Made by a program: the position numbers and the translations under genes
The notes under the pieces: model-generated
What the model was told of the DNA's origin: nothing
What the model saw: the letters and a program-made list of their open reading frames with translations, nothing else
Database searches by the model: none
Assembly (NCBI RefSeq): GCF_013409645.1
Contig: NZ_JACCBG010000001.1
Span: 3,966,001 to 4,030,000 of the forward strand
Reading direction: 5' to 3'
Source: Nocardioides panaciterrulae
GTDB lineage: Bacteria > Actinomycetota > Actinomycetes > Propionibacteriales > Nocardioidaceae
Length of the DNA: 64,000 nucleotides
Part shown: positions 6,340-48,652 of the stretch, in pieces
How the letters are laid out: each line of letters starts with the position of its first letter
How positions within the stretch are numbered: the first letter of the stretch is position 1

Positions 6340-6429
6340 TGGCGGTGACGGAGGGATTTGAACCCTCGGTGGGCTTGCACCCACAAACGCTTTCGAGGCG
6401 TTCTCCTTAGGCCGCTCGGACACGTCACC
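6340..6429 (-). tRNA. tRNA-Ser (anticodon CGA)
   Basis: On the minus strand the sequence folds as a class II tRNA. The 7-bp acceptor stem is GGTGACG/CGTCACC and the D arm contains GAGCGGCC. The anticodon stem AACGC/GCGTT holds loop CTCGAAA with anticodon CGA. A long variable arm follows (TGTGGGTGCAAGCCCACC region), and the T arm has GGTTCAAATCC. The discriminator G and the CCA end are encoded (6340-6342). The long variable arm and the CGA anticodon identify a serine tRNA reading UCG. Confidence 0.95.
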
Positions 6430-6484: not shown

Positions 6485-8419
6485 TCAGCGCCCGCGGACC
6501 CAGGGGATGGTCAGCTCCGAGGGGTAGCGGGCGGACGCGTGCAGCGTCATCACCGTGAGCGAGCCGGGCGCCTCGGTGGCGCTCGGCGCGAGGTGCGGCA
6601 CGTCGAAGGCCTGGACCGCGATCCGCAGCCGGTGGCCCGGCTCGATGGCGGCCGTGGTCGGGAAGACCTCGACGTCGACCGGGACGACCCGGCCGTCCGC
6701 CACCGGCCTCCGGGAGGCGCGGGTGAACGGGTGGAACGGCTGGAGCACCTTGCCGTCGAGGTAGCGGGTGCGCGAGCGGTCGAGCGCCCGCTGCGAGAGC
6801 ACCTGCCAGCCGCCGGTCAGCCGGCTCACGGTGCCGTCGGGGGCCACGTCCTCGACGGCCACCGAGAGCATGCCGTCGCCGCCGACGCTGGAGGTGCACA
6901 GGTGCGCGTCGATCGGGCCGGCGAGGTGCACGGCGTGCTTGACGGGCCGGGTCTCGAACACCACGCCGGAGGAGTCGTCGGGCGCGTTGTCGGTGAAGCA
7001 GGGGTTGTCGGCCCAGACCGCGCTGGGCAGGCCGGCGGTCCACTGGTCGGCCGAGCGGGTGCACAGCCCCGAGACCGGCACCGGGAGCACGTCGGCGGTG
7101 CCGGGCCTCGCCGTACCCCGGGTCAGGACGCCGTGCTCGCCACCGGTGGTGGCGCTGCCCGAGAGCCGGTAGCTGCGGGCCCGGGCGCCGGCCGGCACCC
7201 ACCGGTCGGTGGTCCGCCACCGGTCGCTGCCGAGCTCGTAGCGGGTGACCGGCGCGATGTCGCGGTCCAGCCCCGGGTCGCGACGGCCGCGCAGCCAGTG
7301 GTCGAACCAGCGCAGCTGCAGCTCGGGGAGCGTGCCGTAGCCGGCGTCGGCGACGCCCTCGCCCGAGGAGCCCTGGAGATGGTTCCACGGCCCGACGATC
7401 AGGTGGGTCGGCACGCCGTTGCGCTGCAGGTGCTCGAACAGCATCGGCGTGCCGCGCTGGAACAGGTCGTACTCGCCACCGACCAGGAACGTCGGCACGT
7501 CGACCCGATCGATCACCCGCAGCGGCGAGCGCTCGCGGTAGAACGGCCCGTCGTACGCCGCGTCCCCGCCGAGCGCCGCGTCCAGCAGCAGCGGCGCGGT
7601 GAAGGTGCCCGCGCCGGAGAGGTGGTCCAGCAGCGTGCTGATCCCGGACTGCGGGTCGCTGCCGAGGGTGGCGGGCGGCACCACCCCGGTCGCGGTGACC
7701 AGGCCCAGCCACAGCGGGATGAACCCGACGTCGATCTGGCCGCCGGAGGCGACCACGTCGCGGTAGACGTCACCGGCCGGCACCTGCGGGAAGATCGCGT
7801 CGAGGCCCCGGGGGTGCTGGGCGGCGGTGAAGAGCTGGTTGATGCCCATGTACGACGGGCCGCTCATGCCCACGTGCCCGTTGCTCCACGAACGCCGGCG
7901 CGAGTGCGCCCACTCGACGATCTCCTTGCCGTCCCTGTTCTCCCGCGGGCCGAACGCGTCCCAGCTGCCCTCCGAGCTGCCGGTGCCGCGGGCGTCGACC
8001 ACCAGCTGGGCGTAGCCGCGACGCACCAGGTAGCCCGGGTCGGCGCCGGCGAGCCCCGAGGAGCCCTGCGCGGACTTGTTGTAGGCGGTGATCGTGACGA
8101 TCACCGGCAGCCGCCGGTCCACCGCGGTGCCGTCCGCGCGGGCGGGCAGGGTCAGGTCGCCGCGCAGGACGGTGCCGTCCGACATCGGGATCGCGAGGTC
8201 CTTCTCGGTCACGGTCCCCGGGTAGCGGGCCGGCCGCGGCTGCCAGCCGCTGGGCAGGTCGAGCCGCGGGCCGGCGTCCGCGGCGGCCCGGGCCGGCGAG
8301 CCCGGGTCGGCGTACGACGTGGTCGCCGCGGCGAGACCGCCGGTGAACAGCGTGGCGGCCGCGGCGAGCGCGGCGGCGGCACGGGCGGCGGCGCGGGCGG
8401 CAGGGCGGGTGCGGGTCAT
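6485..8419 (-). CDS. CocE/NonD family secreted hydrolase (X-Pro dipeptidyl-peptidase-like)
   Basis: A 644-residue secreted serine hydrolase. A Sec-type signal peptide (Arg-rich start, then AALAAAATLFTGGLAAATTSYA) covers about the first 37 residues. The alpha/beta-hydrolase domain follows, with GDLTLPAR, DARGTGSSEG and the nucleophile elbow MSGPSYMG. The acid is in VGGEYDLFQRG and the catalytic His in VGPWNHLQG. The last 230 residues form the jelly-roll X-Pro dipeptidyl-peptidase C-terminal domain. Such enzymes cleave esters, amides or N-terminal X-Pro dipeptides outside the cell; the substrate here is unknown. ATG at 8419 has a perfect AGGAGG site, which lies inside a hairpin (see 8421-8443). 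The gene is transcribed away from the 22-bp repeat array. Confidence 0.9.
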   Translation of the reverse strand: MTRTRPAARAAARAAAALAAAATLFTGGLAAATTSYADPGSPARAAADAGPRLDLPSGWQPRPARYPGTVTEKDLAIPMSDGTVLRGDLTLPARADGTAVDRRLPVIVTITAYNKSAQGSSGLAGADPGYLVRRGYAQLVVDARGTGSSEGSWDAFGPRENRDGKEIVEWAHSRRRSWSNGHVGMSGPSYMGINQLFTAAQHPRGLDAIFPQVPAGDVYRDVVASGGQIDVGFIPLWLGLVTATGVVPPATLGSDPQSGISTLLDHLSGAGTFTAPLLLDAALGGDAAYDGPFYRERSPLRVIDRVDVPTFLVGGEYDLFQRGTPMLFEHLQRNGVPTHLIVGPWNHLQGSSGEGVADAGYGTLPELQLRWFDHWLRGRRDPGLDRDIAPVTRYELGSDRWRTTDRWVPAGARARSYRLSGSATTGGEHGVLTRGTARPGTADVLPVPVSGLCTRSADQWTAGLPSAVWADNPCFTDNAPDDSSGVVFETRPVKHAVHLAGPIDAHLCTSSVGGDGMLSVAVEDVAPDGTVSRLTGGWQVLSQRALDRSRTRYLDGKVLQPFHPFTRASRRPVADGRVVPVDVEVFPTTAAIEPGHRLRIAVQAFDVPHLAPSATEAPGSLTVMTLHASARYPSELTIPWVRGR

Positions 8420-8519: not shown

Positions 8520-8707
8520 GCCCAACTCAACCCGGCAGGGGGCCCAACTCAACCCGGCGCGAGGCCCAACTCAACCCGGTGGGGGGCCCAACTCAACCCG
8601 GCGCGGGGCCCAACTCAACCCGGTGGGGGGCCCAACTCAACCCGGCGCGGGGCCCAACTCAACCCGGTGGAGGGCCCAACTCAACCCGGTGGGGGGCCCA
8701 ACTCAAC
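8520..8707. repeat. 22-bp tandem repeat array, about 8.5 copies
   Basis: Units starting at 8520, 8542, 8564, 8586, 8608, 8630, 8652, 8674 and 8696 share the core GCCCAACTCAACCCGG and keep an exact 22-base period. The last copy is partial. The six variable bases after the core alternate between CGCGGG and TGGGGG types in copies 2-6, suggesting expansion by 44-base duplications. On the minus strand the first unit supplies the TGA stop codon of the adjacent PLP enzyme gene. The same repeat recurs at 47839-47916. Confidence 0.92.
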
Positions 8708-9791
8708 GGGGGGTGAGCTGGAGGAGCTGCTCGAGCCGGGCGAGGTGGGGGGCGAGGTCCCAGCCCTGGGCGGCGACCCAGTCGTCGTCCCAGTACGTCG
8801 AGGCGTAGCGGTCGCCGCCGTCGCAGATCAGCGTGACGATCGAGCCGGGCTGGCCGGCGTCCCGCATCCGGACCGCGAGCGCGAGCGCGCCGACGAGGTT
8901 GGTGCCGGTCGAGGCGCCGACCCGACGCCCGACGACCCGCTCCACGACCCGCGTCGCCGCGACCGAGGCGGCGTCGGGCACCTCGAGGACCTCGTCGATC
9001 ACGCCGGGCTCGAACGACGGCTCCACCCGCGGCCGGCCGATCCCCTCGATCCGCGAGCCGGGGCCGGTGACCTCGCAGCTGCGCGTGCGCCAGGCCTCGG
9101 CGAAGACCGACCCCTCCGGGTCGACCACGGCCAGCCGGGTGCCGGTGCGGCGGTAGCGGCAGTAGCGCCCGATCGTCGCGCTGGTGCCGCCGGTGCCGGC
9201 GCCGACGACGATCCAGGCCGGCTCGGGGTGCCGCTCCAGGGCCAGCTGCTCGAAGATCGAGCAGGCGATGTTGTTGTTGCCGCGCCAGTCGGTCACCACC
9301 GAGGCGCGCCCGAACTGGTCCAGGTAGTGGTGGCCGGGCTGCCGGCCGAGCCGCTCGGCCTCGGCGTACATCTCCTCGGCCCGCTCCACGAGGTGGCAGC
9401 GCCCGCCGGCGCGCTCGATCAGGTCGAGCTTGGCTCGGGTGGTGGCGGCCGGCACGACCGCGACGAACTCCAGGCCGAGCATGCCGGCGAAGTACGCCTC
9501 GGAGATCGCGGTCGAGCCGCTGGTGGCGTCGACCAGCGTGGTGCCCTCGGTGATGTCGCCGTTGGCGAGCCCGAAGAGGAACAGCGAGCGCGCCAGCCGG
9601 TGCTTCAGCGAGCCGGTCGGGTGCACCGACTCGTCCTTGAGGTAGAGGTCGACGCCCCACGACCGCGGCAGCGGGAAGACGTGCAGGTGGGTGTCGGCGC
9701 TGCGGTTGCTGTCGGCCTCGATCCGGCGGATCGCCTCGGTCACCCAGGCGCGGGCGCGGTCGGCCTCGGAGGGCTGCGTCTCGGCGGGCAT
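8703..9791 (-). CDS. PLP-dependent cysteine synthase family protein (Cds1-like cysteine desulfhydrase)
   Basis: A 362-residue fold-type II PLP enzyme. The PLP-binding lysine lies in the segment [18 protein letters not shown] near residue 63, and the phosphate loop is VGAGTGGTS. The asparagine/serine region is VDATSGSTA. This arrangement, with the insertion [11 protein letters not shown] near the C terminus, resembles the mycobacterial L-cysteine desulfhydrase Cds1 rather than CysK. Cds1 degrades cysteine to pyruvate, ammonia and sulfide. ATG at 9791 is chosen over an upstream start 14 codons earlier because conservation begins near it. The stop codon is inside the 22-bp repeat array. Family membership is firm, but the exact reaction is inferred. 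Confidence 0.85.
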
Positions 9792-46800: not shown

Positions 46801-47817
46801 GTGGCAACCCTGGCCGAGATCGCCGTCGAGGCGGGCGTGAGCGAAGCGACGGTCAGTCGCGTCCTCAACGACAAGCCCGGGGTCAGCGAGGCCGCGCGCC
46901 AGTCCGTGCTGGTGGCCCTCGACCTGCTCGGCTACGAGCGCCCGACCCGGTTGCGGCGGCGCAGCTCGGGCCTGGTCGGGGTCGTGGTCCCCGAGCTGGA
47001 CAACCCGATCTTCCCGGCGTTCGCGCAGGTCATCGACGACGCCCTCTCCTCGCGCCGCTACACGCCGGTGCTGTGCACCCAGTCGCCCGGCGGGATCTCG
47101 GAGGACGAGTACGTCGAGTCGCTGCTCGACCACGGGGTCGCCGGCATCATCTTCGTCTCCGGCCGACACGCGGACCGGGCCGCCGACCACGAGCGCTACC
47201 ACGCGCTGATCGCCCGGGGGCTGCCCGTGGTGTTCGTCAACGGCCACGCCGAGGAGCTCGACGCCCCGTTCCTCTCCACCGACGAGCACGAGGCGATGAC
47301 GCTGGCGGTCTCGCACCTCGCCGAGCTCGGCCACACCCGGATCGGGCTGGCCATCGGGCCGCGCCGCTACGTGCCGGCGCTGCGCAAGCGGGAAGGGTTC
47401 GTGGCCGCGCTGGGCCGCCGCCTGGGCCAGTCGCCCGAGGAGGCGGAGGGCTGGATCGAGGAGGCGCTCTACTCCCTCGAGGGCGGGGCCGCCGCCACCC
47501 GCCGGCTGCTGGAGCGCGGGGCCACCGCGGTCGTCTGCGGGTCGGACCCGATGGCGCTGGGCGCCGTACGCGCGGTGCGCGAGGCCGGCCGGGAGGTGCC
47601 CGGCGACGTCTCGGTGGTCGGCTTCGACGACTCCAGGCTCACCCAGTTCTTCGACCCGCCGCTGACCACGGTGCGCCAACCCGTCCAGGTGATGGGGCAG
47701 GCGGCCGTCGCCGCGCTCGCCGACGCGATCGAGGGCCAGCCGACCCCCTCCCACGAGTACCTGTTCCGCCCCGAGCTCGTCGTCCGCTCCACCACCGGCC
47801 GCGCCCCCACCGGTTGA
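46801..47817 (+). CDS. LacI family transcriptional regulator of the maltose operon
   Basis: A 338-residue repressor. The helix-turn-helix and hinge are VATLAEIAVEAGVSEATVSRVLNDKPGVS at the start. The effector domain has GVVVPELDNPIFPAFAQVIDD near residue 58, GHTRIGLAIGPRRYVPALRKR near 178 and SVVGFDDSRLTQFFDPPLTT near 280. GTG at 46801 is chosen because it begins the usual LacI start. A longer frame from ATG at 46756 would place the operator half-sites inside the gene. Divergence from malE indicates control of sugar import. Its stop precedes a 22-bp repeat array. Confidence 0.93.
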   Translation: MATLAEIAVEAGVSEATVSRVLNDKPGVSEAARQSVLVALDLLGYERPTRLRRRSSGLVGVVVPELDNPIFPAFAQVIDDALSSRRYTPVLCTQSPGGISEDEYVESLLDHGVAGIIFVSGRHADRAADHERYHALIARGLPVVFVNGHAEELDAPFLSTDEHEAMTLAVSHLAELGHTRIGLAIGPRRYVPALRKREGFVAALGRRLGQSPEEAEGWIEEALYSLEGGAAATRRLLERGATAVVCGSDPMALGAVRAVREAGREVPGDVSVVGFDDSRLTQFFDPPLTTVRQPVQVMGQAAVAALADAIEGQPTPSHEYLFRPELVVRSTTGRAPTG

Positions 47818-47838: not shown

Positions 47839-47916
47839 CGCCAGCTCAACCCGGTGGCAAGCCCAACTCAACCCGGTGGCGGGCCCAACTCAACCCGGTG
47901 GCGGGCCCAACTCAAC
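47839..47916. repeat. 22-bp tandem repeat array, about 3.5 copies (second locus)
   Basis: Units start at 47839, 47861, 47883 and 47905. The first is degenerate; the second and third are identical (GCCCAACTCAACCCGG then TGGCGG), and the last is cut after GCCCAACTCAAC. The period is exactly 22. On the minus strand the repeat provides the TGA stop codon of the VIT1-type gene, as the array at 8520-8707 does for its neighbour. Confidence 0.9.
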
Positions 47917-48652
47917 CGATCTGGGTGCCGATCGCCGCGCCGATGAGATAGGTGACCACCATCGCGAACAGGCCGCCACCCACGTTGCGCAGGACCGCCG
48001 CCCGGGTCGAGCCGTAGCCGAACTTCGCGCTCATCCAGCCGGTGAGGGCGAGGGCGAGGACCACGGTGACCACGGTGACCGGGACCCGGGCGCCGGTGGC
48101 CACCAGCGCGATCGTGAGCAGGGGGAGCAGGGCCCCGACCGTGAACGACAGCATCGAGGCCCAGGCGGCGTGCCAGGGGTTGGTGAGGTCGTCGGGGTCG
48201 ATGCCGAGCTCGGCCTCGGCGTGCGCCCGCAGCGCGTCGTGCTCGGTGAGCTGGCGGGCGACCTCGAGGGCGAGGTCCTCGCTGAGCCCCTTCCCGATGT
48301 AGAGGCCGGCCAGCTCGGACAGCTCCTCCTCCGGCTCCTCCTCGAGCTCGCGGCGCTCCTTCTCCAGCAGCGCGTGCTCGGAGTCGCGCTGGGTGCTGAC
48401 CGAGACGTACTCCCCCGCCCCCATGCTCAGCGCGCCGGCGGCGAGCCCCGCGACCCCGGCGATCAGGATCGAGGTCCGGTCGCTGGTGGCCCCCGCGACG
48501 CCGACCACGATGCCCGCGGTCGACACGATCCCGTCGTTGGCGCCCAGGACGCCGGCGCGCAGCCAGTTCAGCCGGTTGCCGATGCCGCCCTCGTGGGGCT
48601 CGTCCTCGTGGGGGCCGGCCTGCAGGTCCGCCGGGACGGGGTCAGAGGTCAT
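47912..48652 (-). CDS. VIT1/CCC1 family transporter (iron/manganese type)
   Basis: A 246-residue membrane protein of the VIT1/CCC1 family, which moves Fe2+ or Mn2+ across membranes. Family signatures are WLRAGVLGANDGIVSTAGIVVG near residue 29, and the Met/Gly-rich AAGALSMGAGEYVSVSTQRDSE near 73. A cytoplasmic helical insert with many Glu (LLEKERRELEEEPEEELSEL) corresponds to the metal-binding domain. Two further helices follow near the C terminus (LSFTVGALLPLLTIALVATG and NVGGGLFAMVVTYLIGAAIG). ATG at 48652 is used. The stop codon lies within the 22-bp repeat. Confidence 0.92.
   Translation of the reverse strand: MTSDPVPADLQAGPHEDEPHEGGIGNRLNWLRAGVLGANDGIVSTAGIVVGVAGATSDRTSILIAGVAGLAAGALSMGAGEYVSVSTQRDSEHALLEKERRELEEEPEEELSELAGLYIGKGLSEDLALEVARQLTEHDALRAHAEAELGIDPDDLTNPWHAAWASMLSFTVGALLPLLTIALVATGARVPVTVVTVVLALALTGWMSAKFGYGSTRAAVLRNVGGGLFAMVVTYLIGAAIGTQIG

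Follow-up and report, generated by a model that had tools for sequence, protein, structure and literature searches.

Gene-end arrays of a 22-bp repeat in Nocardioides panaciterrulae share their repeat word with the flanks of a predicted chromosomal nuclease gene

Tandem units dispersed between genes, some of them overlapping stop codons, are known from the MIRU of mycobacteria and from BIME/REP elements at 3' ends. MIRU units are about 50-100 bp long, longer than the 22-bp units described here, and we know of no nuclease linked to them. Passages of two papers describe REP sequences as dispersed short extragenic repeats accompanied by RAYT genes, with a proposed within-genome spread of non-autonomous copies (PMC3116915; PMC8266576), and part of a third defines the REP unit as a palindrome of 20-40 bp with a tetranucleotide tag (PMC3733652). 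Among site-specific nucleases, the EDxHD enzyme I-Bth0305I is described as a multi-domain protein that forms a dimer on its target, which spans nearly 60 bp (PMC3943268). Here we analyse a 22-bp array in a 64,000-nucleotide stretch of the N. panaciterrulae chromosome, referred to throughout as the window (Table 1). We consider it probable (roughly 0.6) that the dispersed repeat word seen here in a gene-less copy belongs to a nuclease gene on the chromosome, and that the nuclease drove the spread of this word.

Tandem Repeats Finder placed the array at 8520-8707 of the window with a period of 22, 8.5 copies and 90% matches. The 16-base core GCCCAACTCAACCCGG is present in eight exact copies at 22-base spacing from 8520 to 8674, and a ninth unit start at 8696 carries two mismatches to it, which bears out the nine unit starts at an exact 22-base period given in the preliminary description; the nine units span 8520-8711. 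With up to three mismatches allowed, the window holds 13 matches to GCCCAACTCAACCCGG where 1.07 are expected, a count reached in 0/100 shuffles. Two further details had been read correctly: C-type and T-type endings take turns over the final six bases of copies 2-6 (C, T, C, T, C), and the array begins in the minus-strand TGA (8705-8703) of the Cds1-like gene, a pyridoxal-phosphate-dependent enzyme of the PALP family. The units repeat directly, and their core CCCAACTCAACCC has mirror rather than inverted symmetry, so the read-backwards control in our genome search has no independence for it. A tRNA-Ser(cga) lies at 6340-6429 of the window; in the relative G138, a tRNA-Ser-like sequence recognized by eye directly follows the Cds1 orthologue, whereas in the window the CocE-like gene intervenes.

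Table 1. Locations of the arrays, neighbouring genes and nuclease genes; plain coordinates are window positions, and word 1 is the repeat word of the window arrays.
Feature	Location	Strand	Remarks
Word-1 gene-less array	8520..8711	-	Nine 22-bp unit starts; sense GTTGAGTTGGGCC(N9) on minus strand
TGA stop of PALP-family gene	8703..8705	-	Within GTTGAGTT core of terminal unit; core-to-stop distance -5
PALP gene, pyridoxal-phosphate-dependent enzyme (Cds1-like)	8703..9791	-	Pfam PF00291 8.9e-49; upstream sense gene
X-Pro dipeptidyl-peptidase S15 / CocE-like gene	6485..8419	-	Pfam PF02129 1.2e-50; next downstream of array
Second word-1 array in window	47839..47920	-	Three units and one degenerate; between convergent genes
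TGA stop of VIT1 gene	47912..47914	-	Within terminal unit of second array
VIT1 family gene	47912..48652	-	Pfam PF01988 1.7e-69; ends in second array
LacI-family regulator	46801..47817	+	Pfam PF13377/PF00356; convergent neighbour across second array
Nuclease gene, 300 aa	G000:C1:3916092-3916991		About 49 kb before window; between two convergent genes
Nuclease paralogue with second-family word	G000:C1:3697750-3698607		
Second-family locus	L264:4030-4287		
Second-family locus	L264:7375-7513		
Second-family locus	L265:18279-18709		
Second-family locus	L269:14210-14287		
Second-family locus	L270:5132-5422		
Second-family locus	L272:1213-1383		

The source genome of the window (G000; one contig of 4,270,706 bases) contains 71 exact occurrences of GCCCAACTCAACC, both directions together, and 102 tandem pairs of the word-1 core. 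We analysed 32 arrays among the matches listed of these 102, a set from which arrays at the genome end may be absent and from which one array at L198, a match to a second repeat family, was excluded; genes around the arrays were called with a home-made codon-position finder. The preliminary description had held that a repeat found only at 8520 and 47839 would amount to chance duplication, and the repeat occurs far more widely than that. Replication slippage that produced chance tandem duplications at individual sites, without any linked enzyme, would fit the alternating copies 2-6, as expected from 44-base duplications, but it does not account for the recurrence of this unit at the ends of dozens of unrelated genes across the genome or for the agreement, across genomes, between the word and the nuclease flank described below. 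We therefore reject local slippage as a full explanation and rate it extremely improbable; slippage may still change the copy number of an array.

Among the matches listed, 15 of the 32 arrays lie between convergent genes, 10 between a sense gene and another in the same direction, 5 in antisense tandem context and 2 in divergent regions. The first core falls at -5 to +6 nt of the stop in 20 of the 25 listed arrays with an upstream sense gene, where uniform placement in the same spaces gave a mean of 6.8 and a maximum of 14 in 20,000 simulations, and in seven of these 25 the core's own TGA is the stop codon. The stop-codon link that the preliminary description had noted for the window array is real and general in this genome. 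Seven of the 32 listed arrays, two of them in divergent regions, have no upstream sense gene, which counts against our reading. Genes for Ku and an ATP-dependent DNA ligase lie close together in the source genome (L208:1471-2457 and 313-1305), and a word-1 array begins 5 nt after the Ku stop codon. For comparison with other species we sampled 30 loci from 16 other genomes, which reduced to 24 distinct arrays when duplicates were counted once by hand. Of these, 8/24 were at -5 to +6 and 14/24 at -5 to +30 of a sense stop, and five had no upstream sense gene. One, a GTCGAGT array at L309 in another species, departs from the gene-end rule by lying within a called gene. These arrays are anchored less tightly at stops than those of the source genome, which again counts against the model. 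Across the genus genomes, opposed arrays no more than 500 bp apart pointed inward in 26 cases and outward in 0 by hand count among the matches listed.

This position could indicate that the arrays are host-selected 3'-end elements, terminators or insulators that work as RNA hairpins or protein roadblocks, and that the nuclease gene is a passenger that settled between convergent genes already carrying such arrays. Arrays do lie behind stops in the sense direction, often with convergent genes on either side (15/32 among the matches listed), and inward array pairs could form long hairpins. When the one-sided window array was folded alone, however, RNA from both strands was less stable than dinucleotide shuffles (z about +2), with a sense-strand z of +2.04 and 198/200 shuffles at least as stable. 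An intrinsic terminator hairpin is thus unsupported for this array, the only one folded, and the transcript-end structure proposed in the preliminary description did not hold up there; its interpretation as a whole is partly supported. A host-selected element also sits poorly with the lack, in G138, of five gene-less arrays at alignable sites, and a passenger gene leaves unexplained why nuclease paralogues have different words, each common to its own two flanks, and why the flank word predicts the genome-wide word. We regard this alternative as quite unlikely.

Arrays turn over between species, each represented in our comparisons by one genome. By its Cds1 gene (88% identity), G138 is the closest relative among the orthologues searched, and no GTYGAGT array was found behind the Cds1 gene in any of the other 29 orthologues read. 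Several of these orthologues have other repeats behind the gene, including an inverted repeat in G138. This other gene-end repeat is a long inverted repeat with the ends TGTAACGCGGTGTCC...GGACACCGCGTTACA at L234, downstream of the G138 Cds1 orthologue, and it also occurs at L255 (a variant), L256 and L258, at the same gene end in several species. Five gene-less arrays of the source genome could be aligned to G138 on both flanks (L194, L197, L200, the first array of L213 and the window array), and all five are absent there; two-sided alignment reached a minority of the 32 arrays in the DNA fetched, and L201, with one neighbour only in the G138 stretch, was excluded from the five. At L197 and the window array, the source-genome interval also holds extra sequence or a gene relative to G138. 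The arrays beside the nuclease gene, two further two-sided matches outside the five, have degenerate counterparts in G138. A cassette travelling with its gene was also considered and dropped, because both L194 neighbours are present in G138 without the array.

In the matches listed from 196 genus genomes, GTYGAGT is found again as the core, with species-specific spacers that differ from genome to genome. A loose tandem pattern with the core ACTCRAC had at least one match in 119/196 genomes, where single matches are often chance, and 10 to 116 matches in 28/196. Exact CCCAACTCAACCC was not found in 36 same-genus genomes and occurred three times in 2/21 genomes of the same order. In a class-wide draw of 394 genomes (20 of this genus by count), background only was seen outside the genus, with at most 10 matches per genome, and a pattern scan of public genomes returned, among the matches listed, only single-match stretches. 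One genome from another family of the class carries a 24-bp tandem array with a similar ACTCGAC core (G408:C104:79174-79276).

The same gene of about 300 amino acids was found between inward arrays in G034, in G151 and in the source genome, where it is flanked by inward-pointing arrays of the window word. Pfam matches at the C-terminus of its product are MTES_1575 (1.8e-9, just under the family cut-off) and DUF559 (above cut-off), and N-terminal residues 12-188 match AbiEi profiles (PADLOC AbiEi 1.6e-13), with Pfam AbiEi_4 below cut-off in two of three proteins and absent from the third. The structure predicted from a 54-sequence alignment has a pLDDT of 94.2 and a pTM of 0.91. Residues 196-299 of the model match the catalytic domain of I-Bth0305I (3r3p) with Z 12.6 and an rmsd of 2.4 A over 95 residues (Foldseek E 0.02, prob 1.00; profile match E 0.026) and Vsr with Z 9.9, and the N-terminal part matches the AbiEi structure 6y8q (Foldseek E 2.2e-5) in a loose superposition (rmsd 8.0). 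Scores intermediate between those of I-Bth0305I and Vsr were obtained for two mitoribosomal chains and the endonuclease-like 3hrl, so a similar fold is by itself insufficient to assign function. In the alignment, E200 is conserved in 65/65 copies and D232, H250 and D259 in 64/65 each, four residues that we read as those of the putative EDxHD motif; together with E243 and D245 they are kept in 63-65 of 65 copies. According to this modelling, the protein is an AbiEi-like N-terminal part joined to a predicted nuclease of the EDxHD homing-endonuclease/Vsr fold. The preliminary description had suggested a protein array on a period of two helical turns, which agrees with the conserved core and the period of 21-22, and also with a repeat-linked protein bearing a predicted DNA-binding part.

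A protein search of the 196 genus genomes, scoring at most 12 candidates per genome, found 135 with a match at E<=1e-40. We read 51 loci: 30 best hits, 20 picked by hand (paralogues and array-rich genomes) and one found via arrays. The score for inverted repeats between upstream and downstream flanks exceeded the 95th percentile of 200 control genes at 49/51 nuclease loci and the control maximum at 45/51; among the best-protein-hit loci alone, 29/30 were above the 95th percentile. The two failures were L377 and L354, the latter with a truncated downstream flank. In the test for a tandem period of 20-24, the upstream flank passed at 44/51 loci and the downstream flank at 40/51. Measured against 32 genes in the same convergent context (maximum 32), 38/51 nuclease loci exceeded the maximum; the 13/51 that do not exceed the one high gene of this control count against the model. 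Outside the genus, the nuclease was matched in 12/60 genomes at 15 loci, of which 12 passed the same 95th percentile and L401, L402 and L403 failed, with tandem periods of 21, 22, 32 or 33 in the flanks of most. Below 1e-60, a nuclease match is present in 26/28 genomes with at least 10 array matches, and many array-poor genomes also have one, so nuclease presence does not discriminate and only the flank word does. Three array-bearing genomes count against the linkage to a nuclease: G160 (58 array matches) and G111 (7) have no nuclease match at E<=1e-40, and G182 (43) has a weak match only.

The word itself follows the nuclease. Each of the three nuclease paralogues of the source genome has a word of its own. 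That of the first is the window word, that of the second belongs to a second dispersed family (GCCGAGTCGGCGCTCGTTGAC), which had turned up independently in random stretches, and that of the third is weaker and was recognised by eye. This family has the core GCCGAGTCGGCGCTCGTTGAC with the odd palindrome GCCGAGTCGGC and lies mostly behind stop codons. In G003, the nuclease word is the word behind the Cds1 gene. The 26 genomes with GTYGAGT nuclease flanks (at least two units in the flanks, flank matches being subtracted from the array counts) have more genome-wide arrays than 13 others (Mann-Whitney p=1.5e-6), each of which has at most four. Four genomes, G138, G001, G004 and G089, have GTYGAGT flanks yet almost no dispersed arrays, which counts against the model. 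In a forward test, the flank word of G131, G060, G073, G015 and G011 was searched in the 196 genomes and matched 11, including all five predicted (G060 45 matches, G134 44, G011 35, G073 32, G131 18, G090 11, G015 7, G092 6, G001 5, G031 2, G081 1); none was found in the source genome. Of the genomes not predicted, G134, G090, G092, G001 and G081 have nuclease matches and G031 (84% complete) has none despite the word, and within the set of 39 genomes whose flanks were read, the unpredicted matches are limited to G001 and G081. Protein identity and word sharing were modestly correlated over 49/51 loci (L354 and L374 left out, shared-site loci included), with a Mantel rho of 0.28 that 0/999 permutations reached.

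The nuclease reading frame is open in 65/66 copies. The exception, in G138, was considered as a pseudogene and this was dropped, since other genes of that assembly are frameshifted too and the broken frame is no evidence either way; L374, whose frame is broken, was omitted from the alignments. Nuclease gene pairs are shared between species and genera, and the genes at these shared sites look vertically inherited. No nuclease relatives were found in the plasmid, phage and viral collections searched, and with the inheritance at shared sites this gives no sign of the gene itself moving. At the same gene pair, the nuclease gene can stand in opposite orientations in different species (L342 versus L343 and L398; L372 and L404 versus L390), as would result from a flip of the gene between the inverted arrays around it. 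A search for nuclease gene pairs without the nuclease gene gave two ambiguous cases. The motif TCCACAG/CTGTGGA, which we take to resemble a DnaA box, occurs within 300 bp upstream of 60/66 nuclease genes and of 16/400 control genes (for example at L342, L373 and L404).

These features could also belong to an AbiE-type defence or regulatory protein whose binding sites (operators, chromosomal anchors or decoys) are the arrays, copied passively by recombination. AbiEi proteins recognise inverted repeats in the promoter from which they are expressed, and the N-terminal match to AbiEi models (1.6e-13) and to an AbiEi structure, the gene pairs shared between species and genera and the 65/66 open frames are all in keeping with such a role. 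Against it, 53/66 copies stand between convergent neighbours, and judged by this gene orientation an operon with an AbiEii toxin is unlikely at those sites. Operators alone would also leave unexplained the gene-less arrays at dozens of other gene ends and the arrays on both sides of the gene. We consider this explanation unlikely, while granting it some weight.

Our preferred reading, nuclease-driven spread, would work in several steps. The nuclease most likely drives the spread or homogenisation of its repeats, a role also proposed for RAYTs with REPs. It would bind the 22-bp unit through its AbiEi-like part and cut DNA at or near the unit, and broken arrays would then be repaired from sister arrays by gene conversion or end joining, so that the word expands, contracts and becomes homogenised. 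Array pieces caught in breaks elsewhere could seed new gene-less arrays, and a terminal unit could replace a stop codon. Arrays may survive between convergent stop codons because this space is harmless, and end joining is available in principle, as Ku and an ATP-dependent ligase are encoded in the source genome. We know of no route by which a lone endonuclease inserts short arrays at unrelated sites, which counts against this scheme. More tentatively, and at somewhat less than even odds, we propose a new selfish or domesticated class, in which an AbiEi-EDxHD fusion nuclease would recognise a self-defined word of 21-22 bp (sometimes 32-33 bp), drive its expansion and genome-wide concerted evolution, and seed gene-less arrays between convergent stops. 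The word would drift along with each nuclease lineage, giving species, and paralogues within a genome, repeat dialects of their own.

Our results suggest that the repeats and the predicted nuclease form a so far unreported kind of enzyme-linked repeat system. We found no paper on a nuclease-repeat association among the matches listed in the open-access literature, a scope that leaves subscription journals mostly outside; the same literature gave one match on MIRU with translational coupling and none on REP with trans-translation. If the reading is true, it explains a large set of species-specific gene-end repeats in one branch of the Actinobacteria, and it adds a second, independent solution besides REP/RAYT by which a chromosomal enzyme gene maintains or spreads short non-coding repeats. 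The dozens of natural pairings of nuclease and word would open protein-DNA specificity and concerted evolution to direct testing, and such pairs may also be a source of new sequence-specific nucleases.

We compared the system with several described ones. DNA-uptake-sequence dialects were considered and dropped because the copies lie in arrays between genes. The integron attC core is GTTRRRY, which GTTGAGT fits, but GTCGAGT is common among the cores and the units are arranged in direct tandem, and attC was dropped as well. The protein resembles I-Bth0305I and the Vsr-fold nucleases (Pfam MTES_1575, DUF559) in its predicted nuclease fold and conserved acidic and His residues, and differs from them in its fusion to an AbiEi-like part, in the own-word arrays on either side of its gene and in the dispersed gene-less arrays associated with it; no intron or intein was noticed. 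With the AbiEi antitoxin of type IV toxin-antitoxin systems it shares the N-terminal profile match (12-188) and the similarity to 6y8q; unlike that antitoxin, it has a C-terminal nuclease domain, and most copies stand alone between convergent genes.

The likeness to REP/REPIN-RAYT systems lies in dispersed short extragenic repeats, opposed copies forming inverted pairs, and groups of repeats near a specific enzyme gene. As in those systems the repeats are linked to an enzyme, with own-word flanks at 49/51 nuclease loci, but the enzyme is a different and unrelated one. The Y1 (HUH) transposase family (PF01797) had 0 matches in the source genome and matched 1/196 genus genomes, and the same search detected the family in 5/14 control genomes. 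Membership of the REP/RAYT family is rejected on the lack of a Y1 match in the source genome and on the unit, which is a direct repeat of 21-22 bp and not a tagged palindrome. The arrays described here differ from REP sequences, finally, in that they start at stop codons.
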